Assembly (NCBI GenBank): GCA_009773315.1
Contig: WRPE01000019.1
Location: forward strand, 1-49,355
Direction of reading: 5' to 3'
Length of the DNA: 49,355 bases
Source: Syntrophaceae bacterium
GTDB lineage: Bacteria > Desulfobacterota > Syntrophia > Syntrophales > Smithellaceae
The notes beneath the pieces are model-generated. The model did no database searches, was not told the DNA's origin, and saw only the letters and a program-made list of their open reading frames with translations. A program made the translations under genes and the position numbers. Positions 15,296 to 37,051 of the stretch are shown in pieces; positions within the stretch are counted from its first letter, which is position 1, and each line of letters begins with the position of its first letter.

Positions 15296-16462
15296 ATGGA
15301 AAGATTGGTAACATCAAGTTTGAAACTGGGAATTATTGCGGGCGGACAACTTGGAAAAATGCTGATTCAGGAAGCCAGCAAGTGGGATATCATAACATAT
15401 GTTTTAGATAATGACGAAGATTGTCCTGCCGGAAAAATAGCCTCATGTTTTATTAAAGGCAATCACCTGGATTTTGATTCAGTTTACCAATTTGGGAAAA
15501 AGGTAGACGTGTTGACCTTTGAAATTGAAAATGTGAATATTGAAGCTCTTAAAAAACTCAAATCAGAAGGTCACAGAATTGTACCTGACCCTGAAATATT
15601 AGAGTTAATACAGGACAAAGGCTTGCAGAAAGAATTTTATAAAACGAATGGAATTCCAACTTCTCCCTTTACGCTGTGCGAATCGGAAACTGCTATTGTA
15701 CAGGGCATTGAAAAAGGGGACATCCATTTTCCATTTGTGCAAAAATTAAGGAAGGGTGGATATGACGGGCGTGGAGTGGCTGTTATAAACAACCGTGACG
15801 ATTTGAAGAAAATGCTTCCGGGGCCATCCGTAATTGAAGAAAAAGTTGAGATAATAAAAGAAATTGCAGTCATCGCGGCACGAAACAGAAAGGGAGAAAT
15901 TAAATGCTACCCCGTGGTCGAAATGCTTTTTGACCCAAATGCAAATCTGGTGAATAAACTAATTTGCCCTTCGTCAATAGCTGTCGAACAATCGGAAAAA
16001 GCAACGAATTTTGCCGGCGAAATTATAGAATTGCTTAATATGGAGGGTCTGCTTGCTGTTGAGTTCTTTATAGATTCAAAAGGTGGTGTCATTGTGAACG
16101 AAATTGCCCCCCGCCCACACAATAGTGGTCATCACACAATTGAAAGCATCATTACATCACAATTTGAGCAACACTTGCGAGCCATATTAAACCTGCCTTT
16201 AGGAAGTACTAAACTTAAACTTCCCTCAGTCATGATAAACATTTTAGGAGCTGATGGGTACAATGGTCCGGTAATTTATGAAGGATTAACGGAGAGTATG
16301 TCAATTGACGGTGTAAAGATTCATTTATACGGGAAAAAAATAACTAAACCCTACCGAAAAATGGGGCATGTTACTGTGTTGTCCTCATCATTGGCGTGTG
16401 CATTAAAAAAGGCAGAAAAAGTTAAACAATTAATAAAGGTGAAATCATGGAAAGAAAGTTAA
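15296..16462 (+). CDS. purK: N5-carboxyaminoimidazole ribonucleotide synthase
   Basis: A 388-residue ATP-grasp enzyme that carboxylates aminoimidazole ribonucleotide with ATP and bicarbonate in purine synthesis. The glycine-rich N-terminus (GIIAGGQLGKML), FEIENVN, the ATP-grasp lysine region FVQKLRKGGYDGRGV and the NEIAPRPHNSGHHT motif are all present. The gene is clearly AT-rich, with many AAA, ATA and TTA codons, unlike the GC-rich PEP carboxylase before it, and it resembles Bacteroidetes-type PurK. It overlaps purE by 16 bp and forms one unit with it and the DUF6671 gene. The ribosome site is weak. Confidence 0.93.
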   Translation: MERLVTSSLKLGIIAGGQLGKMLIQEASKWDIITYVLDNDEDCPAGKIASCFIKGNHLDFDSVYQFGKKVDVLTFEIENVNIEALKKLKSEGHRIVPDPEILELIQDKGLQKEFYKTNGIPTSPFTLCESETAIVQGIEKGDIHFPFVQKLRKGGYDGRGVAVINNRDDLKKMLPGPSVIEEKVEIIKEIAVIAARNRKGEIKCYPVVEMLFDPNANLVNKLICPSSIAVEQSEKATNFAGEIIELLNMEGLLAVEFFIDSKGGVIVNEIAPRPHNSGHHTIESIITSQFEQHLRAILNLPLGSTKLKLPSVMINILGADGYNGPVIYEGLTESMSIDGVKIHLYGKKITKPYRKMGHVTVLSSSLACALKKAEKVKQLIKVKSWKES

Positions 16463-16938
16463 TAAGCATTGTAATGGGTTCAGATTCTGACTTGCCCGTA
16501 ATGAAACAGGCAGCCGAAATGCTTGAAAAATTTGGCATCGGTTACGAAATGGATATCGTTTCAGCACACCGAACTCCCGAAAAACTATATGAATTTGCAT
16601 CAAATGCTCATAATCGGGGAATTGTTGCCATTATAGCAGGGGCAGGCGGTGCAGCCCATTTGCCGGGGATGGTTGCGGCAATATCGCCATTGCCTGTAAT
16701 CGGGGTGCCAATAAAGTCGAGCAATTCAATTGACGGTTGGGATTCAGTTCTTTCCATTTTGCAAATGCCGGGCGGCGTTCCCGTTGCCACGGTTGCGTTG
16801 AACGGAGCAAAAAATGCAGGTATTCTTGCGGCACAAATTGTGTCGACTGCTGACAGTTCGGTAAGGGACCGAATGATTGAGTATAAACAAGAGTTAAAAG
16901 AACAGGTAATCATGCAAGCAAAAAATCTGAAAGCCTGA
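16447..16938 (+). CDS. purE: N5-carboxyaminoimidazole ribonucleotide mutase (class I PurE)
   Basis: A complete 163-residue class I PurE that converts the PurK product to 4-carboxyaminoimidazole ribonucleotide. Motifs are MGSDSDLPVM, SAHRTPE, IAGAGGAAHLPGM, PVIGVPI and QMPGGVPVATVA, which cover the active site. It shares the AT-rich composition of purK and overlaps it, so both were probably acquired together. A second purE at 20392 is broken, which makes this copy the likely functional one. Confidence 0.95.
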   Translation: MERKLISIVMGSDSDLPVMKQAAEMLEKFGIGYEMDIVSAHRTPEKLYEFASNAHNRGIVAIIAGAGGAAHLPGMVAAISPLPVIGVPIKSSNSIDGWDSVLSILQMPGGVPVATVALNGAKNAGILAAQIVSTADSSVRDRMIEYKQELKEQVIMQAKNLKA

Positions 16939-18947: not shown

Positions 18948-19202
18948 ATGTCGCATCACCACGGATACGAACGTCATTTGAGGTATCTTGCATCAGCAAT
19001 AAAAATCTTCAAGAACAAAACATTCTTATTGCTGGCTTTGGCATTGCTCTTAATTGTATTGGCTGTCGGGATATGGTTGATTACCTTACTCATACCATTT
19101 TTGGGACAACTCTTGACAATCATTGAAAAAAACGGACTGAAAGGGATTATCGAAGCCGTAAGCCCTTACCTGTTGAAACTTTGGGAGGGTGCAGGCAAAT
19201 AA
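18948..19202 (+). CDS. Small single-span membrane protein, unknown function
   Basis: An 84-residue protein with an AAAGGAA site before ATG. It has a histidine-rich, basic N-terminus (MSHHHGYERH), one long and very hydrophobic helix (about 26-52) and an amphipathic C-terminal helix. No known family is recognised. It is the last gene before a 296-bp spacer that carries the purC promoter and leader. Confidence 0.6.
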   Translation: MSHHHGYERHLRYLASAIKIFKNKTFLLLALALLLIVLAVGIWLITLLIPFLGQLLTIIEKNGLKGIIEAVSPYLLKLWEGAGK

Positions 19203-19271: not shown

Positions 19272-19298
19272 TTGACAAAAATGCAAACATCTTATAAT
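19272..19298 (+). promoter_or_regulatory. Predicted sigma-70 promoter for purC
   Basis: Perfect -35 (TTGACA, 19272-19277) and -10 (TATAAT, 19293-19298) hexamers separated by 15 bp, shorter than the ideal 17. No gene start lies between it and purC at 19499, so a leader of about 190 bases is predicted. Confidence 0.6.
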
Positions 19299-19304
19299 TA
19301 GTAA

Positions 19305-19477
19305 GACAATTAAAATCAGTTCGATGGAGGCACTGAAGAAACACGGGATTGCCTCCGGCGAAAGGATTCAGAAATAAAAGCCTGAGAGTTTAAACGGGTC
19401 TTTTATCGCAGGATAAAAGATGTGAAAGAAAAATAAGGCTGCGACTCGCTTTATGAAACGAGTCGCAGCCTTATTTT
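19305..19477 (+). promoter_or_regulatory. Structured purC leader, candidate attenuator or riboswitch
   Basis: Between the promoter and purC the predicted transcript can form three hairpins. GGAGGCA (19326-19332) pairs with TGCCTCC (19350-19356). TCTTTTATC (19399-19407) pairs with GATAAAAGA (19412-19420) across a 4-base loop. A 19-bp terminator-like stem closes the leader at 19430-19477. A terminator between a promoter and its gene implies conditional read-through. The conserved cores of purine, ZTP and PRPP riboswitches were not found, so no class is assigned. Confidence 0.45.
19430..19477 (+). terminator. Perfect 19-bp terminator hairpin upstream of purC
   Basis: Arms 19430-19448 and 19459-19477 are perfect inverted repeats with a 10-base loop. 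The stem core is GC-rich (GGCTGCGACTCG) and the 3' arm ends in TTATTTT, while the 5' arm begins AAAATAA, so it could act in either direction. It ends about 5 bp before the purC ribosome-binding site. Confidence 0.75.
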
Positions 19478-19498
19478 ATGCCGAAAGGAGAACTGTCC

Positions 19499-20377
19499 AT
19501 GAATCGAATATCCGGTTTTAACTTTTTGCGTCAGGGAAAAGTTCGTGATGTATACGCTGTGGACAATAATCGCCATCTCCTGATTATTGCCAGCGACCGC
19601 ATATCCGCTTTTGATCATGTCCTTCCGAGCATTATACCGGATAAAGGCAAAATTCTCACACATCTGTCAAATTTCTGGTTTGCTAAAACAAAGCATTTCA
19701 TCGCCAATCATATTGTGGATACCGAACCTTTTTTTGTCAATTGGAAGGATGACCATCTCTGGCATCGCGATCAACTCAAACGGCGGACAGTGCTGGTAAA
19801 AAAAGCGGCACCGTTGCCGATTGAAGCCATTGTTCGAGGTTATCTGGCTGGTTCCGGCTGGAAGGAATATCATCAAACAGGCTGTGTTTGCGGAATTGCC
19901 CTCCCCAAAGGGCTGGTGGAGGCTGACCGTCTTCCCGATCCTGTTTTCACGCCGTCCACCAAAGCTGAAGCCGGCGCGCACGATGAAAACATATCATTTG
20001 AGCAGGCGGCGGACATCGCAGGACGGGAAATCATGCAAAAGGTTCGCGACGTCAGCTTAAAACTATACAAATTTGCTGCGGACTATGCCCGCGAGCGGGG
20101 CATCATCATTGCCGACACCAAGTTTGAGTTCGGCCTTTGTAATGGCGAACTCATTCTGATCGATGAGCTTTTTACCCCGGATTCATCACGCTTCTGGCCC
20201 GCCGATACTTACCGGCCCGGCACATCCCCGCCAAGCTTTGACAAACAGTTCGTACGCGACTATCTGGAAAAGATCCGCTGGAACAAACAACCGCCCGTGC
20301 CGCATCTTCCGGATGAAATCGTTTCTAGAACGGCGGAAAAATACAAAGAAGCGCTGAAGCGTTTATCGGTAAATTAG
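19499..20377 (+). CDS. purC: SAICAR synthetase
   Basis: A 292-residue phosphoribosylaminoimidazole-succinocarboxamide synthase, which joins aspartate to the purine intermediate made by PurE. Motifs are LRQGKVRDVYAV, ASDRISAFDHVL, VEAIVRGYLAGSGWKEY, TPSTKAE, ADTKFEFG and DELFTPDSSRFW. I choose ATG 19499, which has AAAGGAG 8 bp upstream; the in-frame ATG at 19478 sits inside the terminator end. It is followed 14 bp later by the broken purE, so the native operon was purC-purE. Expression probably depends on the promoter and leader just upstream. Confidence 0.95.
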   Translation: MNRISGFNFLRQGKVRDVYAVDNNRHLLIIASDRISAFDHVLPSIIPDKGKILTHLSNFWFAKTKHFIANHIVDTEPFFVNWKDDHLWHRDQLKRRTVLVKKAAPLPIEAIVRGYLAGSGWKEYHQTGCVCGIALPKGLVEADRLPDPVFTPSTKAEAGAHDENISFEQAADIAGREIMQKVRDVSLKLYKFAADYARERGIIIADTKFEFGLCNGELILIDELFTPDSSRFWPADTYRPGTSPPSFDKQFVRDYLEKIRWNKQPPVPHLPDEIVSRTAEKYKEALKRLSVN

Positions 20378-20391
20378 AAGGAGGTTTTTTA

Positions 20392-20876
20392 ATGAACAAG
20401 CCGTCAGATCAAAAGATCCCGTTAGTCGCAATCGTGATGGGAAGCAAATCAGATTATGAGGTCATGAAAAAAGTGGCGAAATGTTGCAGAAATTAAGCAT
20501 CCCGCATGAAGTGCGGGTGATCTCAGCCCACCGGACGCCTGATGTTGCACAAACGTTCGCGACCGGCGCCGAAGATCGAGGCCTTCAAGTCATTATCGCT
20601 GCTGCCGAAAAGGCCGCCCACCTGGCCGGTGTGCCCATGTCAACATCAGATATGGGCGGCCTGGATTCACTTTTGTCCATGGTGCAAATGCCAGCCGGCA
20701 TTCCCGTGGGCACCGTGGCCATCGGCGAAGCGGGCGCGAAAAACGCCGCGCTGCTGGCCGTGTCGATTCTAGCCTTGTCCGACATTGGATTAAGCAATGA
20801 ACTAAAAACCTTCAGGCAGCAGATGCGAACAGAGGTGGAAGCGGCAGATGCCGAAATCAGCAATATGCCGAATTGA
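20392..20876 (+). pseudogene. purE: Broken purE (frameshift and internal deletion)
   Basis: This begins after an AAGGAGG site as a normal PurE (IVMGSKSDYEVMKK). A base is missing near 20484, so the frame ends at a TAA around 20499, while ISAHRTP and the remainder continue in the frame that stops at 20876. Two further faults are visible. The catalytic-loop GAGGAAH is replaced by AAAEKAAH, and about 12 residues that normally lie between AHLAGV and GVP are absent, so LAGV runs straight into PMSTSD. Three independent defects make a pseudogene much likelier than a sequencing error. The intact purE at 16447 can supply the function. Confidence 0.85.
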
Positions 20877-20983: not shown

Positions 20984-21622
20984 ATGACGAATATGACTCC
21001 TAATATACGCCCCAATGCTGCCGGTGACTATCCTGATATTCACCCTGACGCGTTTATTGATCCGTCCGCGCAGATTATCGGGAAAGTGAAAATAGAGAAA
21101 GATGTGTTCGTAGGCCCAATGTCCGTGATCAGGGCGGATGAACGAGGCCCCGATGGTTCAGTACAACCCATTGTCATCCATCAAGAAGTGAACATTCAGG
21201 ACGGGGTGATTATTCACAGTCATGGGGGCTCCTCGGTTACAATCGGGCCTCGGACGTCGGTGGCACATGGGGTCGTCATCCATGGCCCCTGTTCCATTGA
21301 TGAGGATTGCTTTCTTGCTATACGAAGCATGCTTTACAGTTCTACACTTGGGTCGTCCGTCTGGGTCGGTATGGGGGCAATCGTCATGCGCACCATTCTG
21401 GTGGCGCATACTCATGTATCGACCGGCAGCGTGATTTTGTCGCGTCCCGATGCTCTCGGATTGAAGTTTGTCTCCGCCAACCATCAACATTACATGGAAG
21501 AGGTGCTCAGAGCCGCTCAACGGCTGCTGGAAGATTACATAAATAATGCGCGACAGAAAAAGATTGAGTGCAGCATGACAACACTCACGTCGCAAACATA
21601 TTCACAGACCGACATTTACTAA
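20984..21622 (+). CDS. Gamma-class carbonic anhydrase (Cam-like)
   Basis: A 212-residue left-handed beta-helix protein of the gamma-carbonic anhydrase type. Family marks are HPDAFIDPSAQIIGKV, the SVIRADE arginine/aspartate, NIQDGVIIH and SVAHGVVIHG. His78, His95 and His100 are placed as the three zinc ligands. There is no signal peptide, so it would act in the cytoplasm, converting CO2 to bicarbonate. The C-terminal 40 residues beyond the helical cap are poorly conserved. It sits 13 bp before an acyl-CoA carboxylase operon, a bicarbonate user, and no promoter is obvious in the 107-bp gap upstream. Confidence 0.85.
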   Translation: MTNMTPNIRPNAAGDYPDIHPDAFIDPSAQIIGKVKIEKDVFVGPMSVIRADERGPDGSVQPIVIHQEVNIQDGVIIHSHGGSSVTIGPRTSVAHGVVIHGPCSIDEDCFLAIRSMLYSSTLGSSVWVGMGAIVMRTILVAHTHVSTGSVILSRPDALGLKFVSANHQHYMEEVLRAAQRLLEDYINNARQKKIECSMTTLTSQTYSQTDIY

Positions 21623-21635
21623 AAGGGTTATCATT

Positions 21636-23192
21636 ATGAACGATCCATATCATGAAAAAACTATGGAAACCCTCGACAGGCTTCGCGAGGAATCCATTAC
21701 GGCAGGCGGCCGGGAGAAGAAGGAACACCAGCACAGTCTGGGCAAGTTAACGGCGCGGGAACGCATTGATCTGCTGCTCGATGAGGACTCTTTTGAAGAA
21801 TTTGATGTTTTGAAAAGAGGTCGGGGTGGCGTCGACGGGGATGAGCCCAGCTATGCGGGCGACGGGGTGGTCACCGGCCACGGAACCATTGATGGACGGG
21901 AAGTTTTTATTTTCAGTCAGGATTTCACTGTCGTCGGCGGATCACTGGGAGAAGCCCACTCGCAGAAAATATGTAAAGTGATGGATATGGCCGTCAAGGT
22001 GGGCGTCCCCATCATCGGGTTGAATGATTCGGGCGGCGCCCGTGTCCAGGAGGGCGTGGATGCTCTTGCCGCTTACGGTGAAATTTTTCATCGCAACGTC
22101 CGGGCCAGTGGTGTTGTGCCGCAAATATCCTGCATCATGGGCCCCTGCGCAGGCGGCGCGGTTTACAGTCCGTCCATCACCGATTTCGTTTTTATGGTGC
22201 AGGAATCTTCGTTTATGTTCGTCACCGGTCCGAAAATCGTCAAGACCGTCACCCATCAGGACATCACATCCGAAGATCTTGGCGGCGCTCATGTTCACGC
22301 GCAAAAAAGCGGCGTTGCCCACTTTATTCCGGCAAACGATGTCATGTGTCTGCGTGACGTCCGTCGCCTCATCAGTTATCTGCCTTCCAACCAAACACAA
22401 AAAGCGCCAAGGCTGGATCTTATGGATCCTGTGGATCGCGTCGATCCGTCTCTGGACAGCCTGATACCGGATAATCCCAATCAGACTTACGATATGAAGG
22501 TATTGATTTACAGCATACTGGACGGCGCGGAATTCATGGAGGTGCACGCTCAGTATGCCCGCAACATTATCTGTGGCTTCGGACGACTGGGAGGTCAGAC
22601 CATCGGCCTGGTGGCCAATCAACCGGCGGCGCTGGCGGGCGTTCTGGATAACGACGCCTCCGTCAAGGCCGGACGATTTGTCCGTTTTTGCGACTCCTTC
22701 AATATCCCCCTGATCACGCTGGTGGACGTTCCGGGCTTTATGCCCGGTCCGGAACAGGAGCACGGCGGCATCATCCGCCACGGCGCAAAACTGCTTTATG
22801 CCTTTACCGAAGCGACGGTTCCGCGCCTTTCCGTCATTGTCCGCAAGGCCTATGGCGGCGCCTATCTGGTGATGAACTCCAAGCACATTAACGCCGATGT
22901 CAACTACGCCTGGCCAACGGCGGAAATCGCCGTCATGGGGCCAAAAGGCGCAGCCGAATTGATCCACCGTAAAGAAATTCAATCGTCTACCGACCCTGAC
23001 GCCGTCTTGACTGATAAAATGTCCCAATACCGCCAGACTTTCGCCAACCCTTTTTGGGCCGCCAAGCGGGGCTATGTTGATGACGTCATTTACCCACGCG
23101 ATACGCGTCGTCATCTGATTCGCTCTCTGCAGATGATGGAAGGGAAAACAGTCGGAAGCCCAAAACGCAAACATGGAAATATTCCTTTATGA
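21636..23192 (+). CDS. Acyl-CoA carboxylase, carboxyltransferase subunit
   Basis: A 518-residue carboxyltransferase of the propionyl-/methylmalonyl-CoA type, which moves the carboxyl group from biotin to an acyl-CoA. Motifs are KLTARERIDLLLDE, SQDFTVVGGSLGE, NDSGGARVQEGVDAL, GPCAGGAVYSP, VPGFMPG and KAYGGAYLVM, covering both acyl-CoA and carboxybiotin sites. The partner biotin carboxylase follows with a 4-bp overlap. The acyl substrate cannot be set from sequence. Propionyl-CoA carboxylase and membrane-linked methylmalonyl-CoA decarboxylase alpha are the closest alternatives, but the neighbouring biotin carboxylase favours a carboxylase. Confidence 0.92.
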   Translation: MNDPYHEKTMETLDRLREESITAGGREKKEHQHSLGKLTARERIDLLLDEDSFEEFDVLKRGRGGVDGDEPSYAGDGVVTGHGTIDGREVFIFSQDFTVVGGSLGEAHSQKICKVMDMAVKVGVPIIGLNDSGGARVQEGVDALAAYGEIFHRNVRASGVVPQISCIMGPCAGGAVYSPSITDFVFMVQESSFMFVTGPKIVKTVTHQDITSEDLGGAHVHAQKSGVAHFIPANDVMCLRDVRRLISYLPSNQTQKAPRLDLMDPVDRVDPSLDSLIPDNPNQTYDMKVLIYSILDGAEFMEVHAQYARNIICGFGRLGGQTIGLVANQPAALAGVLDNDASVKAGRFVRFCDSFNIPLITLVDVPGFMPGPEQEHGGIIRHGAKLLYAFTEATVPRLSVIVRKAYGGAYLVMNSKHINADVNYAWPTAEIAVMGPKGAAELIHRKEIQSSTDPDAVLTDKMSQYRQTFANPFWAAKRGYVDDVIYPRDTRRHLIRSLQMMEGKTVGSPKRKHGNIPL

Positions 23193-25216
23193 GACATGAC
23201 ATGTTCAATAAAATCCTGATCGCCAATCGGGGCGAGATTGCCGTCCGCATCCTCCGCACCTGCAAGCGATTGAGCATCGCCACCGTCGCGGTTTATTCAG
23301 ACGCGGACAGATACAGCCTGCATCGGCAACTGGCCGATGAATCCGTCCACATCGGCGGTGCGTCCGCCCGTGAATCGTACCTGGATGCAAACAAGCTCAT
23401 CGAGGCCGCGATTGCAACCGGCTGCCAGGCTGTTCATCCCGGGTATGGTTTTCTGTCCGAAAACGCCCAGTTTGCCCGGCAGATTGCAGCAGCAGGTCTG
23501 GTTTTCATCGGTCCGCCTGCCGAAGTCATCGCCATGATGGGCGATAAAATCGCTGCCAAAGAGCTGGCCATCTCGGCCTGCGTGCCGGTTCTTCCCGGTC
23601 ATATGGATGCGTTAAAAGATGAAGACGAGGCGCTGGCTATAGCGGAATGCATGGGTTACCCGGTATTGCTCAAACCCGCGTCCGGAGGTGGCGGCAAGGG
23701 AATGCGTGTAGTTCGCAATTCCTCGGAGATGGAATCCGCGCTCGCCGCGAGCCACCAGGAAACAAGAAAATCTTTCGGTGACCACAGAATCTTCATCGAG
23801 CGCTACATCGAAAACCCTCGCCATATCGAAGTCCAGATTCTGGCCGACGCACACGGCCATGTCATCCATCTGGGAGAAAGAGAATGTTCCATTCAGCGGC
23901 GGTATCAGAAAATCATCGAAGAGTCGCCGTCGCCCGCCCTAACCGCAGAGCAGCGGCTGAAAATTTGCCAGTCGTCCTGCGGTTTAGCCCGCAAAGCAAG
24001 TTATGTCAACGCGGGAACGATTGAATATTTAATGGACAGTTACGGTTCCTTCTATTTTCTGGAAATGAACACCCGCCTTCAGGTGGAGCATCCCGTTACG
24101 GAAGCCGTCACCGGATTGGACATCGTGGAGCTTCAGCTGCGCGTCGCAGCCGGACAACCTCTGCCTTTAAAACAAGAGGACATTTCCCTGAGCGGCTGGG
24201 CAATCGAAGCCCGGATTTGCGCGGAAGACCCCGCAAGGTTTTTCATGCCGGCCGCTGGAATGATCACCCGCTACGCAGAGCCCCGGGGGCATAATATCCG
24301 GGTTGACAGCTGTGTCGCCATGGGTTCCAAAATCGGCATTCACTATGATTCGCTGTTGTCCAAGGTCATTGGTTCCGGCAAGACCAGAGAAGATGCACGC
24401 ATCAGTTTGATCGAAGCGCTCAACGGATATCATATTGAAGGCGTTGTCAACAATATCGATTTCGTCAACGCCATTTTATGCCATCCGGCCTTCGCTCACG
24501 GAAATCTGAATACTGGTTTTATAGATCAGTACTTTGAAAGAGGAAAGCCGAAAAGCCCGCCGGATTCTGAACACCTGGCGCTGACGGCGCTGACCGCGAC
24601 TTTGATCTACCATGTCCGCGTCATTGCCGTGCGGGAGTCGCTTCGGCCCATGACATCAACCATCGGACGCAGCAATCCGGAAACGAAACCTTATCGTTAC
24701 AAGGTCAAGTCTGGAGAAGATATATTTGATGTGCGGCTCCATGGAACATTGAAAGAAAGTTGCTGGATATTTCAGGTCAATGGACGCGATTATGACTTAG
24801 AAACGCCGCGTTTTGAGCTGTATCGCCGCAGACTTAAGCTCAAAATCAACGGACAGACACACAGATTCCGTTTACAGATCCAAGAATCCTTTATGCATGT
24901 GGCGTTCAACGGTGTCACCCGGCTTTTTGAAATTTATACCCCCAGGGAATATTTTTTGATGCATTACATGCCGCAAAGAACTGAAAAAGCGGTGGATAAT
25001 ATTGTCGTATGCCCCATGCCGGGTCTGGTGGTGGAGGTGCTTGTTCATAAAGGCGAGTGGGTTTTCCGCGGTCAGAATCTGGTTATTCTTGGATCGATGA
25101 AAATGGAAAGCGGCGTGGCTTCTTGCATGGACGGCGTTATCGCGGAGGTTTTCGTGGTCGCTGGACAGGCGGTCGAGGCCGGGGAAATGATGATGAGACT
25201 TGAGGTGAAATGCTGA
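23189..25216 (+). CDS. Acyl-CoA carboxylase, biotin carboxylase with biotin carrier domain
   Basis: A 675-residue ATP-grasp biotin carboxylase with the carrier fused at the C-terminus. It has KILIANRGEIAVRI, HPGYGFLSENAQFA, the ATP site KPASGGGGKGM, IEYLMD and EMNTRLQVEHPVTE. The end carries a biotinyl domain with Lys638 in the motif GSMKMES (usual AMKM replaced by SMKM). A middle linker (about 460-600) has the strand-rich type seen in propionyl-CoA carboxylase alpha. It carboxylates biotin with bicarbonate and ATP and passes the group to the preceding subunit. The start at 23189 overlaps the previous stop by 4 bp; ATG 23201 is also possible. Confidence 0.93.
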   Translation: MRHDMFNKILIANRGEIAVRILRTCKRLSIATVAVYSDADRYSLHRQLADESVHIGGASARESYLDANKLIEAAIATGCQAVHPGYGFLSENAQFARQIAAAGLVFIGPPAEVIAMMGDKIAAKELAISACVPVLPGHMDALKDEDEALAIAECMGYPVLLKPASGGGGKGMRVVRNSSEMESALAASHQETRKSFGDHRIFIERYIENPRHIEVQILADAHGHVIHLGERECSIQRRYQKIIEESPSPALTAEQRLKICQSSCGLARKASYVNAGTIEYLMDSYGSFYFLEMNTRLQVEHPVTEAVTGLDIVELQLRVAAGQPLPLKQEDISLSGWAIEARICAEDPARFFMPAAGMITRYAEPRGHNIRVDSCVAMGSKIGIHYDSLLSKVIGSGKTREDARISLIEALNGYHIEGVVNNIDFVNAILCHPAFAHGNLNTGFIDQYFERGKPKSPPDSEHLALTALTATLIYHVRVIAVRESLRPMTSTIGRSNPETKPYRYKVKSGEDIFDVRLHGTLKESCWIFQVNGRDYDLETPRFELYRRRLKLKINGQTHRFRLQIQESFMHVAFNGVTRLFEIYTPREYFLMHYMPQRTEKAVDNIVVCPMPGLVVEVLVHKGEWVFRGQNLVILGSMKMESGVASCMDGVIAEVFVVAGQAVEAGEMMMRLEVKC

Positions 25217-27081
25217 TGCATCGATTACTGGATGGACGGTTGAATGAAAAAATGCTGATGCTGGGCAATGAAGCCATTGCCCGGGGAGCGCTGGAGGCGG
25301 GCGTTTCCTTTGCTGCGTCTTATCCCGGAACACCTTCTTCCGAGATCGCTCTGCAGTTTTTTCAGATATCACGGGAAAGCGACCTATATTTCGAATACAG
25401 CGCCAATGAGAAAGTAGCTCTGGAAGTAGCGGCAGGCGCCGCCATGTGCGGACTCAAGACGATGGTCAGCATGAAGCATGTCGGCGTCAACGTAGCCTCC
25501 GACGCCTTGATGACACTTGCCTATACCGGCATTACCGGATCCTTGGTGCTGGTGGCCGCAGATGATCCGTTCATGTTTTCCAGTCAGAATGAGCAGGACA
25601 GCCGTTACTACGCAAAACTGGGCAACCTCCCCATGCTGGAGCCGTCCTCTGTGGGCGAAGCCAAGGAAATGACCAAGTACGCTTTTGAACTTTCAGAAAA
25701 ACTAAAGCTCCCTGTTATTTTGCGCACCACTACGCGCATTAACCACGCCAGCGGCGTTGTAACACTGGGAGCCCTGGCGGAGAGGAATACGAAAGGTTCC
25801 TTTATTAAGGATCCCTTTTCCTATGTCTGCATCCCCTCCGTATCCCGCAATCTTCATCCCAAACTGCTTAACAAAATGGACGAGGCGGCCATCATGTCCA
25901 ATCAAAGCATATGGAATATTATTGAAGGCAGCGGCAAACTGGGCATCGTCTGTAACGGCGCGAGTTACGGTTACGTCAGAGACGCAGTGCAGCAACTAGG
26001 CATTGCCGATCGCTGCCGAATCTTGCGCATAGGGTTTTCGCACCCCTTTCCCGACGAACTGACAAGTAATTTCCTGCAAAGTTGTGAAAAAGCGCTTATA
26101 GTTGAAGAAAGCGAACCCTATATGGAAGAAGCAGTCAGAAACTGCGCCCAGCAATCCGGGCTGACACTGCCCGTGCGCGGCAAAGGAAAAGATTTTTTTT
26201 CCAGGCTCTACGAGTTTGACCCGGCAGAAGTGACAAAAGTGATGGCGTCTTATTTTGATGTTTCCTATGAACAAAGCCTTCCCATGAAAACCGCTGATTT
26301 ACCGGTGGCTCCGCCGAGGCCGCCCAATTTATGCGCCGGATGTCCTCATCGGGCAGCATACGTGGCAGTGCGGGAAGTTTTTGGAGACGAGGCGATCTAC
26401 CCCACGGATATCGGCTGTTACACGCTCGGGCTGCTGCCGCCTCTGAGCATGGGCGACTTTCTCATAGCGATGGGCGCGGGTCTGGGCACGGCCGGCGGCT
26501 TTTCGATCGCCACAGGCCGCAAGGTGGTCGCTTTCATCGGAGATTCCACATTTTTCCACTCCGGTCTTTCTCCGCTGGCGAGCGCCGTTTACAACAACCA
26601 CAACTTCACCCTCGTGATCCTCGACAATGAGACCACAGCCATGACCGGACACCAGCCTCACCCGGGCGCGAACATCCGTCATCTGGGACTGCCGCTTACC
26701 CAGGTATCCATTGAGCAAGCCGTTGCCGGTCTGGGCGTAAAAAAAGTTATCACCGTCAACCCCTTTCAGTATCGGAAGACCGTTGAAGCGGCAAAGGAAC
26801 TTGCCGGCTACAAAGGCGTGTCCGTGCTGATTGCCAGGGCGTCCTGTCCTCTATATGACCGAATGCTTCACGGCTTTAAGCGTAAAAAACCTTTTTTTAT
26901 CAACCATGAAAAATGTAATAATTCCAGGAACTGCGTGAACAAGGCGGCCTGCCCCGCTTTCTATGTCGGCGATCAAGGTCTTGAAATCGATGCGGATCGC
27001 TGTACCGGCTGCGCTTTGTGTTCACAGATATGTCCGGAAAAAGCCATCTCGCCAATATCCAAAAAAGAGGTGTCCTCATGA
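25210..27081 (+). CDS. iorA: Indolepyruvate:ferredoxin oxidoreductase, alpha subunit
   Basis: A 623-residue thiamine-diphosphate enzyme subunit that oxidatively decarboxylates aryl pyruvates to aryl-CoA and reduces ferredoxin. The N-terminal part has SYPGTPSSEI and GVNVASDALM. The TPP-binding part has CAGCPHRA, GCYTLGLLPP, GDSTFFHSG and DNETTAMTGHQPHPG. The C-terminal 70 residues carry two ferredoxin-like cysteine clusters (CNNSRNCVNKAACP and CTGCALCSQICP). It overlaps the biotin carboxylase gene by 7 bp and iorB by 4 bp. In anaerobes it serves amino-acid degradation or, in reverse, aromatic amino-acid synthesis; the direction is not evident. Confidence 0.95.
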   Translation: MLMHRLLDGRLNEKMLMLGNEAIARGALEAGVSFAASYPGTPSSEIALQFFQISRESDLYFEYSANEKVALEVAAGAAMCGLKTMVSMKHVGVNVASDALMTLAYTGITGSLVLVAADDPFMFSSQNEQDSRYYAKLGNLPMLEPSSVGEAKEMTKYAFELSEKLKLPVILRTTTRINHASGVVTLGALAERNTKGSFIKDPFSYVCIPSVSRNLHPKLLNKMDEAAIMSNQSIWNIIEGSGKLGIVCNGASYGYVRDAVQQLGIADRCRILRIGFSHPFPDELTSNFLQSCEKALIVEESEPYMEEAVRNCAQQSGLTLPVRGKGKDFFSRLYEFDPAEVTKVMASYFDVSYEQSLPMKTADLPVAPPRPPNLCAGCPHRAAYVAVREVFGDEAIYPTDIGCYTLGLLPPLSMGDFLIAMGAGLGTAGGFSIATGRKVVAFIGDSTFFHSGLSPLASAVYNNHNFTLVILDNETTAMTGHQPHPGANIRHLGLPLTQVSIEQAVAGLGVKKVITVNPFQYRKTVEAAKELAGYKGVSVLIARASCPLYDRMLHGFKRKKPFFINHEKCNNSRNCVNKAACPAFYVGDQGLEIDADRCTGCALCSQICPEKAISPISKKEVSS

Positions 27082-27671
27082 AAACAACCCGTATCCTGAT
27101 TGTGGCGGTGGGCGGACAGGGAAATATACTTTCTGCTCGCGTGCTAGGCGAGGCGGCCGTCGCCGCCGGGATCGACGTGCGCATGTCCGAGTTCCATGGC
27201 ATGGCGCAGCGCGGCGGCGTGGTGGAGTCCATGATACTTTTAGGCGACGGCAGCGGCTACTGCATTTCCGATGGCAACGCAGATGTCCTGCTGGGCTTTG
27301 AACCTTCTGAAACGCTCCGCGCCGCAAAAAAGTGTGGCGCAAACTCGGTAGTCATCACCAATGTGAGGCCTTTGCCGCCATTTACGGTGGCTCTGGGAAA
27401 AGACCAATACCCTGACATTGATTACGCTATGCATTTAATGTCCGAACGGGTAAAGAAGATGATTGCCTTCGACGCCACAGCACTGGCATTGCAAGCGGGT
27501 TCATCCCTGACCCTGAATATGGTAATGCTGGGCGCTCTGTCCCAAAGCGGCGCCATTGATCTACCCCAGGAATTGCTGGAGCGGATTATCCGCGAAAAAA
27601 CGAAAAAGCAATTTACGGATATGAACCTGAAAGCATTCGAGTTAGGCATGCAGAAAGCTGCGAACTGCTGA
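27078..27671 (+). CDS. iorB: Indolepyruvate:ferredoxin oxidoreductase, beta subunit
   Basis: A 197-residue beta subunit that completes the iorA enzyme. Features are the N-terminal ILIVAVGGQGNILSARVL, which binds the CoA/ADP moiety in this fold, and SEFHGMAQRGGVVES, which is diagnostic for the gamma-like domain of 2-oxoacid oxidoreductases. I start at ATG 27078, which overlaps the iorA stop by 4 bp; upstream in-frame sequence belongs to the ferredoxin domain of IorA and is not part of the protein. Confidence 0.94.
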   Translation: MKTTRILIVAVGGQGNILSARVLGEAAVAAGIDVRMSEFHGMAQRGGVVESMILLGDGSGYCISDGNADVLLGFEPSETLRAAKKCGANSVVITNVRPLPPFTVALGKDQYPDIDYAMHLMSERVKKMIAFDATALALQAGSSLTLNMVMLGALSQSGAIDLPQELLERIIREKTKKQFTDMNLKAFELGMQKAANC

Positions 27672-27701: not shown

Positions 27702-28877
27702 ATGATGGAAAATACGCCTTTCAAAAATAATATTCCAGCGGTGCTTGCACTGGAAGACGGAAGAACTTTTCACTGCAGGTCGTTTACCGGACACGGTGAA
27801 TCTGCAGGCGAGATCGTCTTCAATACGTCCATGACCGGTTATCAGGAAATCCTCACCGACCCATCTTACACGGGTCAAATGGTTACGATGACTTATCCCC
27901 TCATCGGCAACTACGGTGTGAACGCCTTTGATATGGAATCGGATCGCATCCACGCGCAGGCTATTTTAGTCAAAGAGTATCAAGCCTGGCCCAGCAACCA
28001 CCGTGCGAAAGAGACCCTTTCGGATATTCTCATACGGCATCGCGTCATGGGCATCGATGCACTGGACACAAGGGCTTTAACGTTGCATATTCGAAACACA
28101 GGCGCCATGCGGGCTGTTATTTCTACTAGAAACCAGAACAGTTCGGCGCTTGCTGACAGAGCACAACAAATCCCCCGGATGGCCGGACTCGATCTGACTG
28201 GCGCCGCCTCCTCGAAAATACCCTATCGTTTCAGCAATGGACAAAAAACACTGCTCAACGAAGGCGGCAGCTTAATCGACCGCAACGTCTGGCGACACAG
28301 CGGACATAAGACCCCAGTCGTTGTTATCGATTTCGGAGTCAAACACAATATCCTGCGCTGTCTTGAAACTGTCGGCTGCGAGGTTGTTGTTCTGCCCGCC
28401 CGGGCTGACGCTGATCTTGTGCGTTCGCTCAATCCCGATGGCATTTTATTGTCCAACGGCCCCGGCGACCCCGAGCCGGCTATTGATGCCGTGAAGACCA
28501 TCAGGGATTTAATCGGTTTTCGCCCCATATTTGGAATCTGCCTGGGTCATCAACTACTGGCGCTGGCGCTGGGCGGCAAAACCTATAAACTGAAATTCGG
28601 CCACCGCGGCGGCAATCAGCCGGTCATCAATGTGGTAACGAACAAAGTAGACATTACATCCCAGAATCATGGATTTGCGGTCGACGCGGAGAGCCTGAAC
28701 CGGCGTGATATCGAAATCACGCATCTGAATCTGAATGACGGCACGGTAGAGGGTTTCCGTCACAGGCGACTGCCTTTGTTCGCTGTACAATACCATCCGG
28801 AGGCGGCGCCGGGTCCCCATGATGCGGCGAGCCTATTTTGTGAATTTCATGAAACAATAAAAGTGCTTCATAATTAA
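27702..28877 (+). CDS. carA: Carbamoyl-phosphate synthase small subunit
   Basis: The 391-residue glutaminase subunit of carbamoyl-phosphate synthetase. The N-terminal CPSase domain has LEDGRTFHCRSF, FNTSMTGYQEILTDPSY and GNYGVN. The C-terminal class I glutamine amidotransferase has the nucleophile Cys280 in FGICLGHQ and the dyad in QYHPEAAPG. It supplies ammonia to CarB. Unusually, carB does not follow directly: four genes of a 2-oxoacid:ferredoxin oxidoreductase lie between them. The product carbamoyl phosphate is needed for pyrimidines, arginine and HypF-dependent hydrogenase maturation. Confidence 0.95.
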   Translation: MMENTPFKNNIPAVLALEDGRTFHCRSFTGHGESAGEIVFNTSMTGYQEILTDPSYTGQMVTMTYPLIGNYGVNAFDMESDRIHAQAILVKEYQAWPSNHRAKETLSDILIRHRVMGIDALDTRALTLHIRNTGAMRAVISTRNQNSSALADRAQQIPRMAGLDLTGAASSKIPYRFSNGQKTLLNEGGSLIDRNVWRHSGHKTPVVVIDFGVKHNILRCLETVGCEVVVLPARADADLVRSLNPDGILLSNGPGDPEPAIDAVKTIRDLIGFRPIFGICLGHQLLALALGGKTYKLKFGHRGGNQPVINVVTNKVDITSQNHGFAVDAESLNRRDIEITHLNLNDGTVEGFRHRRLPLFAVQYHPEAAPGPHDAASLFCEFHETIKVLHN

Positions 28878-28890
28878 AAAGGAGAATAAT

Positions 28891-29466
28891 ATGCTCAGAA
28901 CTATTGAAATTCGATGGCATGGAAGAGGCGGGCAGGGAACCGTCACTGCGGCGAAAACATTCGCTACCGCATGCTTGCACAGCGGACGACATGTCCAGGC
29001 GTTTCCCGAATACGGGCCTGAACGAGCCGGCGCACCCTTACAGGCTTATAATCGCATCAGCCCAACTAAACTGCAGTTGCATTGTCCTGTATCCCAACCC
29101 GACATTGTCGCCATCGTTGACGCCAGTCTGCTAAACGGCGTGGACGTATCCGCCGGCATGTGCAACGAGGGACTCTTTCTCGTCAATACGGACAAAAACC
29201 ACGCGATCATCAAAAAGAAGCTTCAGCTGAAACCCAAACAGAAGCTCTATTGCCTTGATGCCTCCGGCATCGCACTGGCATGCTTTGGTCAGCCTTTCCC
29301 GAACTCTTCTATGGTCGGCGCGTTGGGGAAAATTTCCGGATTGGTCGATCTGAACGCGCTGCTCGAAGACGTCGAAAACAGTTTCGGCAAAAAATTCTCC
29401 AAAAAAGTGGTCAGCGGAAATGTGGAAGCCGTCAGAAGAAGCTGGAACGAGGTGATTGAAACATGA
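28891..29466 (+). CDS. 2-oxoacid:ferredoxin oxidoreductase, gamma subunit
   Basis: A 191-residue gamma subunit of a four-subunit pyruvate/2-ketoisovalerate-type ferredoxin oxidoreductase. Diagnostic segments are EIRWHGRGGQGTVTAAKT, FPEYGPERAGAP and NSSMVGALGKISG. It has an AAGGAG site and starts 13 bp after carA. It overlaps the delta subunit gene by 4 bp. With the other three subunits it would convert a 2-oxoacid and CoA to acyl-CoA, CO2 and reduced ferredoxin, or run in reverse as a carboxylation. Confidence 0.92.
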   Translation: MLRTIEIRWHGRGGQGTVTAAKTFATACLHSGRHVQAFPEYGPERAGAPLQAYNRISPTKLQLHCPVSQPDIVAIVDASLLNGVDVSAGMCNEGLFLVNTDKNHAIIKKKLQLKPKQKLYCLDASGIALACFGQPFPNSSMVGALGKISGLVDLNALLEDVENSFGKKFSKKVVSGNVEAVRRSWNEVIET

Positions 29467-29759
29467 AAACAAAAATTATTGATCGATCAAACTGCCGACC
29501 CGTGATCACCCAAGCGGGCAATTCCGTTGCTTTAAAAACCGGAAGCTGGCGGTCGCTGGAACCTGTACTGCTCAAGGAAAATTGCACCAATTGCCTGCTG
29601 TGCTGGCTTTACTGCCCGGACATGTCCGTCATCGTCCGCGATGGGAAAGTTGAAGGTTTTGATATGGACTATTGCAAGGGATGCGGCATCTGCGCCTTGG
29701 AATGCCCCGGGAAAAAAGGGCAAAAAGCGATCCGGATGCGCAAGGAGGAAAAAGAATGA
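29463..29759 (+). CDS. 2-oxoacid:ferredoxin oxidoreductase, delta (ferredoxin) subunit
   Basis: A 98-residue two-cluster ferredoxin subunit. The motifs CTNCLLCWLYCPD and CKGCGICALECPG each ligate one [4Fe-4S] cluster, with the last cysteine of each crossing over. It passes electrons from the TPP site to external ferredoxin. It overlaps both neighbours by 4 bp (ATGA), showing tight coupling of the four subunits. Confidence 0.93.
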   Translation: MKTKIIDRSNCRPVITQAGNSVALKTGSWRSLEPVLLKENCTNCLLCWLYCPDMSVIVRDGKVEGFDMDYCKGCGICALECPGKKGQKAIRMRKEEKE

Positions 29760-30934
29760 AAAAAAAGATAGCCGTAACCGGAAATGAAGCTCTGGCGGAA
29801 GCCTTAAGGCAGATCAATCCCGATGTCTGCGCGGCCTACCCCATCACGCCGCAGACGGATATGATGCAGCGTTTTTCTGAATTTGTCGCCGACGGCCTGG
29901 TCGACACGGAACTGATGCTTGTAGAAAGCGAACATAGCGCCATGAGCGCCTGCATCGGCGCTTCGGCAGGCGGCGGACGCGTAGCCACGGCCACCAGCGG
30001 GCCAGGCCTCGCGCTAATGTGGGAGATGCTCTACGTGGCCTCGGGTATGCGATGCCCTATCGTCATGCCGGTGATCAACCGCGCGCTTTCCGCGCCACTC
30101 AATATTCACTGCGACCACTCCGACGCCATGGGGGCAAGAGATTCGGGCTGGATTCAACTATGGTCGGAAAACGCACAGGAGGCCTATGACAACATGATCA
30201 TGGCTTTCCGCATCGCCGAACATACAGATATTCGCCTGCCGGTCATGGTCTGCATGGACGGGTTTATCATCAGCCATTCTCTGGGGATCATGGAGTTTCT
30301 GGCCGACGATGTCGTCAGAAAGTTTATAAGGAAGTTTACGCCGCACGAAGCTCTGCTGGATATCAACCATCCCGTGAGCTACGGACCGCTTATCGTCACA
30401 GACCAGTACCATGAATACAAAAACGCGCAAAATAACATTATGAGCGAAGTTTTTGACGTCGCTTCAGATGTGGCTGCGGAATTTGAGAATATATCGGGTC
30501 GGCGTTACGGGTTTTTTGAAACATATAAACTAGAAGACGCGGAGATCGGAATCGTGATTTTAAACTCAGCTGCCGGCACCTGCAAGGATATGATCGACGA
30601 AGCACGTCGGGAAGGTATCAAGATTGGTCTTCTCAAACCCAGACTCTTCCGGCCTTTTCCCTACGAGATGATTGCGGCGGCGCTTTCTCACCTGAAAGTG
30701 ATCTGCGTCTTGGATCGATCGGATTCCTTTGGAGCACATGCGCCTCTGTTTGTCGAAATCGCCACCAGCCTTTATAACTGCAAGCAAAGACCCGTTTTGA
30801 TCAATAGAATTTACGGGCTTGGCGGACGCGATTTTATGCCGGAACACGTCTCCGGTGTCATCAACGAGATGATCGATATAGCGGGGAAAAAGATAGAAAT
30901 CATCCCCAAAAAATACATCAGTTTGCGAAAATAA
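29756..30934 (+). CDS. 2-oxoacid:ferredoxin oxidoreductase, alpha subunit
   Basis: A 392-residue alpha subunit. The N-terminal pyrimidine-binding domain has GNEALAEAL, AAYPITPQTDMM, VESEHSAMSACIGAS and ATSGPGLALM, and the C-terminal domain has GRDFMPEHV. Start ATG 29756 overlaps the delta-subunit stop by 4 bp; the longer in-frame extension upstream lies within the delta gene. The type (separate alpha, beta, gamma, delta) is that of archaeal and anaerobic bacterial POR/VOR. Pyruvate is the most likely substrate, but branched 2-oxoacids cannot be excluded. Confidence 0.93.
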   Translation: MKKKIAVTGNEALAEALRQINPDVCAAYPITPQTDMMQRFSEFVADGLVDTELMLVESEHSAMSACIGASAGGGRVATATSGPGLALMWEMLYVASGMRCPIVMPVINRALSAPLNIHCDHSDAMGARDSGWIQLWSENAQEAYDNMIMAFRIAEHTDIRLPVMVCMDGFIISHSLGIMEFLADDVVRKFIRKFTPHEALLDINHPVSYGPLIVTDQYHEYKNAQNNIMSEVFDVASDVAAEFENISGRRYGFFETYKLEDAEIGIVILNSAAGTCKDMIDEARREGIKIGLLKPRLFRPFPYEMIAAALSHLKVICVLDRSDSFGAHAPLFVEIATSLYNCKQRPVLINRIYGLGGRDFMPEHVSGVINEMIDIAGKKIEIIPKKYISLRK

Positions 30935-30987
30935 ACTCTGGCGCTGCCTGGCTATATCCGGCAGACGCATCTAAGAAAAGGAGACAT

Positions 30988-31932
30988 ATGTCATCTTCAC
31001 TTAAAATAAAAGAATTGTCGAAAAAAGAAATTCTGCTGGCTCAAGGGCACCGGATGTGCCAGGGCTGTGGCGCGTCCATCGTTGTCAAGATGGTCATGCT
31101 CGCCATTGACAAGCCAATTGTGGCTTGCTCGCCGACCGGCTGTTTAGAAGTTACCACCTGCATTTCCGATTATACATCCTGGAAAATACCCTGGATCCAT
31201 TCAGCCTTTGAAAACGCCGCCGCGACAATGGCGGGCGTGGAAACCATGTACCGCTCCCTGAAAAAACAGGGAAAAATTTCCGAGGATATGTCCTTTGTCG
31301 TCTTCGCAGGCGATGGGGGAACTTACGACATCGGTTTCCAGAGCCTCTCCGGCGCACTGGAACGCGGGCACGATATGCTTTATATCTGCTACGATAACGG
31401 CGCTTACATGAACACGGGCATCCAACGCTCCGGCGCAACGCCGTTTGGCGCTTCAACAACAACCTCACCCGCCGGCAGTGCCGTGCCGGGCAAGATCCAT
31501 CAACGCAAGGACATTACCCGGATCATGGCTGCCCACAATATCCCTTATGTGGCACAGGCCTCGCCCAGCCATCATCTGGATCTGATGCGCAAGATTCAAA
31601 AAGCCCTGTCGATCGAGGGTCCCAAGTACATCAACATCCTGTCGCCCTGCCATCGCGGCTGGCGCTCGAAACCCGACGACGCCATTGCTCTTTCCAGGCT
31701 TGCGGTGAACACTTCCTTCTGGCCGCTTTTTGAGATTGAAAACGGAAAGACCCGTGTGACGTATATTCCGAAGGACAAACGTCCGTTAAGAGAGTTTCTG
31801 CGGCCTCAGGGTCGGTTTGCCCATCTGTTCCAGCCGGAAAATGAATGGATTATTGAGAAATCGCAGGCAAAAATCGACGCCGACTGGTCCGCCCTGTTAG
31901 CTGAAGGCGCTTGCGAGGCCATCGAAGAGTAG
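30988..31932 (+). CDS. 2-oxoacid:ferredoxin oxidoreductase, beta subunit
   Basis: The 314-residue TPP-binding subunit. Visible are the cysteines [20 protein letters not shown] and LSPCHRGW that hold the proximal [4Fe-4S] cluster, and the TPP motif [16 protein letters not shown] followed by [14 protein letters not shown]. It has AAAGGAG upstream and follows alpha after a 53-bp gap. It ends 2 bp before carB, so all subunits and carB are probably on one transcript. Confidence 0.94.
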
Positions 31933-31934
31933 CC

Positions 31935-34900: not shown

Positions 34901-35162
34901 CCATAAGGTTTCTTCAGGTAGGCCGCACATCGTTGACTTCATCAAGAATAAAGCCGTGCAGGTGATCGTGAATACCGGTTATGGCCGCAGCCCATCCAGA
35001 GATGGATTTGCGATTCGCCAGGCAGCGCTTAATTTTAACATCCCCTATACGACAACCATGGCAGGCGCCCAGGCCATGTGCCGGGCAATTGAAAGATTGA
35101 AACAGGGCGAATTGCCTGTATGTTCTCTACAGACCTACTATGCCCAACATACCATTGAATAG
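31935..35162 (+). CDS. carB: Carbamoyl-phosphate synthase large subunit
   Basis: The 1075-residue synthase with two homologous ATP-grasp halves. The first begins [18 protein letters not shown] and the second [17 protein letters not shown]; each half has its own ATP-grasp domain, for example [15 protein letters not shown] and [14 protein letters not shown]. The C-terminal allosteric MGS-like domain holds SGRPHIVDF and NTGYG. It makes carbamoyl phosphate from bicarbonate, glutamine and two ATP. Start ATG 31935 is 2 bp after the oxidoreductase beta stop. Length and domains are normal. It ends with TAG. Confidence 0.97.
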
Positions 35163-37050: not shown

Positions 37051-37051
37051 T

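Follow-up and report, generated by a model that had tools for sequence, protein, structure and literature searches.

A conserved leader RNA of riboswitch-like anatomy upstream of purC, P-type ATPase and DUF4914-tsaC genes in Smithellaceae

The leader and the genes behind it

The window analysed here, a stretch of 49,355 nt from a Syntrophaceae bacterium (contig WRPE01000019.1, family Smithellaceae in GTDB), contains a purC gene preceded by a long leader; the leader and the genes from purC to HAD-tsaC lie on the + strand. A promoter (19272–19298) is made of the −35 box TTGACA (19272–19277) and the −10 box TATAAT (19293–19298), both perfect hexamers, separated by a 15-base spacer. With spacers of 15–18 allowed the site scores 12 of 12, a score equalled in none of 300 base-shuffled controls, in agreement with an earlier note on this DNA that had placed a consensus promoter before purC. 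A standard promoter scan, which accepts spacers of 16–18 only, does not list the site, whose spacer is 15.

The three hairpins described in the earlier note are all found in the leader. Domain 1 (19314–19368), delineated by covariation and minimum free energy (MFE) folds, consists of helix Pa (AATC/GATT), an AG/AG internal loop, helix Pb starting from TTCG/CGAA and a variable apical part. An A-rich linker (19369–19379), defined from the alignment and less conserved in the members of the family that precede ATPase genes, leads to domain 2 (19380–19439). This domain, delineated by a covariance model, pair counts and RNAalifold, is closed by helix P2a (GCCU/AGGC); its two sides are conserved, one GAGAGUUUNAANCG-like and the other GAAAGAAANUAAGGC-like, and its inner hairpin varies. 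The third hairpin is an intrinsic terminator (19431–19476), whose 5′ arm contains the AGGC that is also the 3′ strand of P2a. The note had given this terminator 19 bp and a distance of 5 bp to the ribosome site of purC; the hairpin is there, but the fold has 18 pairs and its stem ends 8 bases before the AAGGAG ribosome-binding site (19485–19490). For the 227-base leader, terminator included, the predicted folding energy is −77 kcal/mol, whereas dinucleotide shuffles give −44.0 ± 4.3 (z = −7.7; none of 200 shuffles as good). On the + strand the longest T-run of the window terminator has four Ts versus six to nine in the other nine members of the family, and a consensus terminator scan flags the hairpin for the − strand only. 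Upstream, a small ORF ends at 19202; the promoter follows it and precedes the terminator.

The first gene, purC (SAICAR synthase, 19499–20377), is an extra copy, 53% identical to a second purC on another contig of the genome (C63). It is followed by purE2 (20392–20876), frame-shifted and shortened here and intact in a related genome, G007; the frameshift lies near 20480, and a stretch present in G007 is missing. Next come a hexapeptide-repeat protein resembling gamma carbonic anhydrases (20984–21622; NCBIfam carbonic anhydrase models below cut-offs), present only in the window among the four genome stretches compared, and a carboxyltransferase with a biotin carboxylase (21636–25216), which we read as a biotin-dependent acyl-CoA carboxylase. 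Among NCBIfam models the carboxyltransferase fits that of a methylmalonyl-CoA decarboxylase subunit best, though below cut-off. Indolepyruvate ferredoxin oxidoreductase genes iorA (above cut-off) and iorB (below cut-off) occupy 25210–27671, and carA, for the small subunit of carbamoyl-phosphate synthase, 27702–28877. Then follow porC, porA and a porB-like gene for a 2-oxoacid (pyruvate type) ferredoxin oxidoreductase (28891–31932; porA and porB below equivalog cut-offs), carB (31911–35162), which is one of three full-length carB homologues in the genome, and a DUF4914 gene with HAD-tsaC, encoding threonylcarbamoyl-AMP synthase (35170–38578). In two relatives, G006 and G034, this last pair stands apart with an element of its own. 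A NiFe hydrogenase follows HAD-tsaC in the window.

Judging from gene order and spacing, the genes behind the element probably form one transcript. The order purC–purE2–carboxyltransferase–biotin carboxylase–iorAB–carA–porCAB–carB–hydrogenase is common to four genomes, with insertions. Each of the four has two purC genes and three full-length carB homologues, those of the operon being extra copies. Upstream of the element the window carries PEP carboxylase, purK and another purE; this purE is intact and lies with purK at 15296–16938. The region 13704–38578 as a whole gathers genes linked to CO2 or bicarbonate: PEP carboxylase, purK/purE, biotin-dependent carboxylase, ior, por-like, carAB and tsaC.

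The DUF4914 protein (35170–37050) has a P-loop-like GASGGGKSE stretch, from which we took its fold to be perhaps PEP-carboxykinase-like. No solved structure was matched by sequence and the mean pLDDT of the AlphaFold model is 34; the idea carries no weight in what follows. A literature search on DUF4914 found nothing. The adjoining frame (36740–38578) encodes a HAD-family phosphatase fused to threonylcarbamoyl-AMP synthase.

A family of ten members in five genomes

A search for purC in 59 genomes gave 56 matches in 52 of them. Four copies (from the window, G007, G006 and G034) form a group at 68–100% identity to the window purC; no other match, the second purC of each of these four genomes included, exceeds 56% identity. 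At 30 of the 56 purC loci we inspected the upstream region for a GCCTGAGAGTTTRARCGG-type motif, allowing up to five substitutions in 21 letters, and found it in exactly these four. When 155 genomes of the order were searched for the pattern, three mismatches being allowed, 12 matches came up in 10 genomes, among them sites before genes other than purC in G007 and G006. Six of the 12 (L037–L042), having no promoter–terminator plan and mostly resembling coding DNA, were set aside.

Two covariance models of domain 2 were built, R1 from six sequences and R2 from all ten members eventually accepted; the window's own sequence is in both models, which score its domain 2 (match 19368–19443) at 95.9 and 87.5 bits, respectively. 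Run on the class (155 genomes) with E up to 0.1, R1 yielded 21 matches in 15 genomes; the ten members score 36.5–95.9 bits and the next best match 26.5. With R2 the same ten were recovered from 39 Smithellaceae genomes at 57.0–87.5 bits, nothing else exceeding 29.4. Among 395 genomes of the phylum R2 found the window's own copy as the only true member, along with two false matches; searches over more than 40 genomes ran with stricter filters and may have lost weak relatives. Of the weak covariance-model matches, L053, L055, L056, L066 and L091–L095 were set aside after inspection of their sequences, and L054, L057–L062, L096 and L097 on score alone (<26 bits).

An exact-pattern scan of GTDB (84,980 species) returned ten stretches. 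Seven are true members, in four metagenome-assembled genomes (MAGs): Smithellaceae bacterium C21_metabat.bin.13, Syntrophaceae bacterium LM1-B42D, HGW-Deltaproteobacteria-12 and Smithella sp. Yes70-30. These are the same genomes as G007, G006, G034 and G080 and do not add to the five. The other three stretches (L073–L075) were rejected on sequence and have no R2 match at E 0.01. The exact pattern does not fit the ATPase members of G006 and G034 and may omit the window's own genome, so that distant relatives may exist beyond its reach. With R1, none of eight viral stretches that carry a 16-letter pattern scored above 18 bits, and the viral stretch L082 was rejected on inspection.

The family thus comprises ten members in five Smithellaceae genomes, located before purC (four: G000, which is the genome of the window, G007, G006 and G034), before a P-type cation ATPase (three: G006, G034 and, with a band 7 gene first and then the ATPase, G007) and before DUF4914-tsaC (three: G006, G034 and G080). 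As seen here the family is narrow, with five genomes, all Smithellaceae and all from metagenomes, since the true members in GTDB are confined to four MAGs and the phylum scan adds none. The ten members are few and not independent: they come from one family of bacteria, those before the same gene share descent, and G000 and G007 are close. Still, the leader is conserved in the four purC genes of this clade and at six other places, so that the case in which the earlier note would have given up its proposal, a leader without conservation in relatives, does not apply.

DUF4914 is rare in the order and has a matching distribution. In 155 genomes of the order there are nine matches, eight above cut-off, and within Smithellaceae DUF4914 and the element occur in the same five genomes; in the three genomes outside Smithellaceae with DUF4914 above cut-off the element was not detected. 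Where DUF4914-tsaC follows carB (G000 and G007), no element lies directly upstream; where it stands apart (G006, G034 and also G080, on a 4.6-kb contig), it has its own. The ATPase gene of the window's genome begins at 649, behind a band 7 gene that is cut by the contig start, so an element placed as in G007 would fall off the contig.

Conserved structure and overlap with the terminator

In all members domain 2 has the same layout: P2a (GCCU/AGGC), a GAGAGUUUNAANCG-like 5′ side, a hairpin of varying sequence and a CGAAAGAAAAGUAAGGC-like 3′ side, with the invariant letters located in internal loops. In the alignment of the ten members, which was fitted to the model and therefore favours the pairing counts, 92.1% of 126 cells are paired. 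Two-sided changes occur in 12 cells, a number reached by none of 500 shuffles, and in five pairs, reached by nine of 500; further pair types number 10, with no excess over shuffles. When the partner strand is shifted by 1–3 columns, pairing is at most 55.6%. The two-sided changes are confined to the inner hairpin, while P2a has one-sided changes and three non-standard cells, one each in the ATPase members of G034 and G006 and in G080. RNAalifold, applied to the same alignment, returns the same helices with U-A/U-G pairs beside the loop.

Domain 1 has a four-pair helix and, beyond an AG/AG-like internal loop, another helix whose first pairs are mostly UUC/GAA or UUU/GAA; elsewhere its letters are poorly conserved. 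Over nine distinct rows 61 of 63 cells (96.8%) are paired and seven out of seven pairs show two-sided changes (none of 500 shuffles), with a covariation score of 0.81 versus 0.29 in shuffles, although the strands and register of this domain were picked by eye, which flatters the counts. Free MFE folds, also read by eye, show the helix–internal loop–helix form in nine of ten members (exactly 2×2 in seven), the exception being the ATPase member of G006 in the slice used. On fixed slices the fold z-scores are above −2 in five of ten members for domain 1 and in five of ten for domain 2. By comparative sequence evidence, then, the leader is structured: letters in its loops are invariant and stems of both domains covary, which single-sequence folds support in part. 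The proposal of the earlier note to collect purC upstream regions from relatives and look for covarying stems has thus been borne out, and with it the promoter–leader–terminator–gene plan.

A TTGAC-type box is present upstream in all ten members, eight by simple search and two more by inspection. As a whole the promoter match is strong in the window and in several other members, but it is equalled by 13% of base shuffles for the ATPase member of G006, 16% for the DUF4914 member of G034 and 48% for the purC member of G034. In eight of the ten the promoter-like site that scores best has a spacer of 15 bases, below the usual 16–18.

In every member a terminator hairpin follows, and when it is folded alone its 5′ arm takes in all or most of the P2a 3′ strand. 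For transcripts that end right after P2a, at least two P2a pairs form with predicted probability >0.6 in all ten; once the terminator is added, the P2a pairs fall to ≤0.01 in nine. The exception is the ATPase member of G034, where P2a stays at 0.53–0.56 with the terminator present. P2a and the terminator are thus predicted to be mutually exclusive, clearly so in nine of ten members, and in these folding calculations the overlap has the plan of an ON-type riboswitch.

The switch may be pictured as follows. The RNA would begin just upstream of domain 1, and domains 1 and 2 would fold before the terminator. If domain 2 were held closed through P2a, its AGGC strand would be kept from the terminator, so that polymerase would read on and the operon would be made; if not, AGGC would be taken by the terminator and transcription would end. 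In such an ON switch the simplest means of keeping domain 2 closed would be a small molecule or an ion that binds to the invariant internal loops. A protein ligand is also possible.

Rfam 15 contains models of the ZTP, purine, PRPP/guanidine (ykkC), glycine, c-di-GMP and Na+-I/Li+-I riboswitches and of the T-box leader. Searched with it at the gathering threshold, the whole window gave no match. A 311-base stretch with the leader, compared with Rfam at E up to 10, gave 23 matches, all far under their cut-offs; the best, mir-2944 (E 0.00015), and most of the others sit on the terminator hairpin, and the sole riboswitch among them is preQ1-II (E 8.5, 15 bits against a cut-off of 47). For the nine other members, at E up to 5, there were seven weak matches, none to a riboswitch and none common to members. 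Neither the window leader nor any of the nine members matched the models of ZTP, purine, PRPP/guanidine (ykkC), glycine or c-di-GMP riboswitches, the Na+-I/Li+-I models (Rfam models, as distinct from consensus drawings) or the T-box leader at cut-off; the earlier note's failure to place the leader in the purine, ZTP, PRPP, glycine or c-di-GMP classes is thereby upheld, with the members added.

The closest analogues in plan are the transcriptional ON riboswitches for ZTP (pfl), fluoride and PRPP, which likewise form a 5′ leader with an aptamer-like domain sharing its 3′ strand with the terminator; the present element differs from them in having no Rfam match, other conserved letters, two successive hairpin domains and a regulon that extends beyond purines. 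Glycine riboswitches and other tandem aptamers also place two domains before a terminator. In our family, however, the two domains differ in their conserved letters, domain 1 is poorly conserved, and there is no Rfam match. Resemblance to the Na+-I (DUF1646) and Li+-I/II (nhaA-I/II) riboswitches lies in a compact RNA, gene activation and cation transporter genes downstream, and for Li+-I also in stems P1 and P2 joined by a linker (PMC9646797). The present element is unlike them in lacking an Rfam match and in having targets that are mostly not transporters.

Taken by sequence and predicted structure, this is a real conserved leader RNA, unmatched in Rfam, of the riboswitch kind by anatomy and very narrow in its known distribution. 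We consider it probable that it acts in cis as a riboswitch-like transcription attenuator and makes a candidate new class, given its own conserved letters and structure and the absence of an Rfam match. A literature search found no orphan riboswitch in Syntrophobacterales, and one on riboswitches and Smithella gave a single listing, which concerns the Wood-Ljungdahl pathway.

What the leader RNA may sense

The genes behind the element are suggestive in this respect. CO2 or bicarbonate is a substrate of PurE, PurK, PEP carboxylase, acyl-CoA carboxylase, carbamoyl-phosphate synthase, TsaC and carbonic anhydrase, and enzymes of the por and ior types either fix CO2 or set it free. An inorganic-carbon signal is thus in keeping with most of the operon. 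Studies of carbonic anhydrase mutants have defined a bicarbonate-requiring set consisting of PEP carboxylase, PurK/PurE, acyl-CoA carboxylase and carbamoyl-phosphate synthase; members of all four occur in the window, upstream or downstream of the element. Genes for CO2 or bicarbonate steps, some of them extra copies, are thus gathered behind one leader, and a displaced pair carries its own copy of it. It is unusual for an orphan riboswitch candidate to have so informative a regulon.

Our preferred, though tentative, reading is that the signal is inorganic-carbon status, sensed directly (CO2/HCO3−) or by way of an intermediate, for example AIR, on which PurE acts. This reading does not fit everything: for the P-type ATPase and band 7 genes no connection with CO2 is evident, the function of DUF4914 is uncharacterised, and purC, which does not use CO2, is not accounted for by itself. 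The purC operon could also be read as one of ATP users or of reductive metabolism. As to direction, the ON plan would suit a metabolite that accumulates in CO2 shortage, such as AIR, better than direct induction by low CO2. ZTP offers a parallel: its riboswitch is also tied to purine genes and reports a stalled pathway, ZTP being read for folate shortage as AIR or CAIR would be for CO2 shortage. More speculatively, the element might be the first RNA sensor of inorganic carbon, responding to CO2/HCO3− directly or to AIR/CAIR as an alarmone of CO2 shortage and switching on extra CO2/HCO3−-using enzymes in syntrophic bacteria. Our search of open-licence papers found no RNA sensor for CO2/HCO3−, and among the matches listed none was by title about a riboswitch-type bicarbonate sensor with carbonic anhydrase. 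A signal of inorganic carbon would add a new kind to the ligands of RNA, and RNA sensing of CO2 in bacteria could then be tested directly in vitro; should the signal be AIR or a cation, the class would still be new. In either case attention is drawn to the carboxylation and hydrogenase cluster of Smithellaceae, which are partners of methanogens.

The earlier note had suggested a purine-linked element. A purine intermediate could serve as a proxy signal, but a simply purine-linked reading is too narrow, because the element is also found before the ATPase and DUF4914-tsaC genes and because the purC operon, with its many non-purine genes, is rich in CO2/HCO3− enzymes. A riboswitch of the purine pathway in the strict sense, sensing a purine or a precursor and controlling purC-purE as a purine operon, seems unlikely to us: purC-purE are lead genes in four of ten members, and AIR as ligand would join the purine and CO2 readings, yet six of ten members precede genes without a known purine role, and the Rfam models, which include purine, ZTP and ykkC, are not matched.

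In the case of a cation sensor (Na+, Ca2+ or similar), the P-type ATPase would be the target that defines it, and the remaining genes would belong to metabolism linked to sodium or energy. Such an ATPase stands behind three of the ten members, directly or after a band 7 gene, and that of G034 is nearest to calcium-pump models, below cut-off. The carboxyltransferase resembles a subunit of methylmalonyl-CoA decarboxylase, an enzyme of Na+-pumping type. Known Li+/Na+ riboswitches turn on cation-transporter genes (PMC9646797). Small MpsC-like ORFs lie upstream of the ATPase element at 2304–2672 of L045 (G007), 7867–8250 of L069 (G034) and 8259–8648 of L046 (G006); the one in G034, directly upstream, is called by Pfam (Na+-translocating system), those in G007 and G006 by sequence likeness. 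For such a sensor, however, purC, carAB, por, ior and tsaC would be odd targets, and no Rfam match points to it; we regard this reading as improbable.

Alternatively, the attenuator could depend on a protein, or on translating a leader peptide, in place of a small ligand. Short frames are indeed present, such as MEALKKHGIASGERIQK in the window and, in G007, one that ends in IQK, but the 36 frames of at least five codons in the ten leaders differ in place and composition, and no short frame is common to all ten. Only two of the 36 starts have a Shine-Dalgarno-like group upstream, and the invariant letters lie in internal loops; we hold an attenuator of this kind to be rather improbable.

Least credible is the ordinary explanation, in which the terminator of the upstream gene happens to adjoin an unrelated promoter: the flagging of the hairpin for the − strand, the short + strand T-run and the upstream ORF ending at 19202 would suit it, but the promoter is placed after that ORF and before the terminator, and the same leader with its invariant loop letters recurs before three kinds of genes in differing surroundings.
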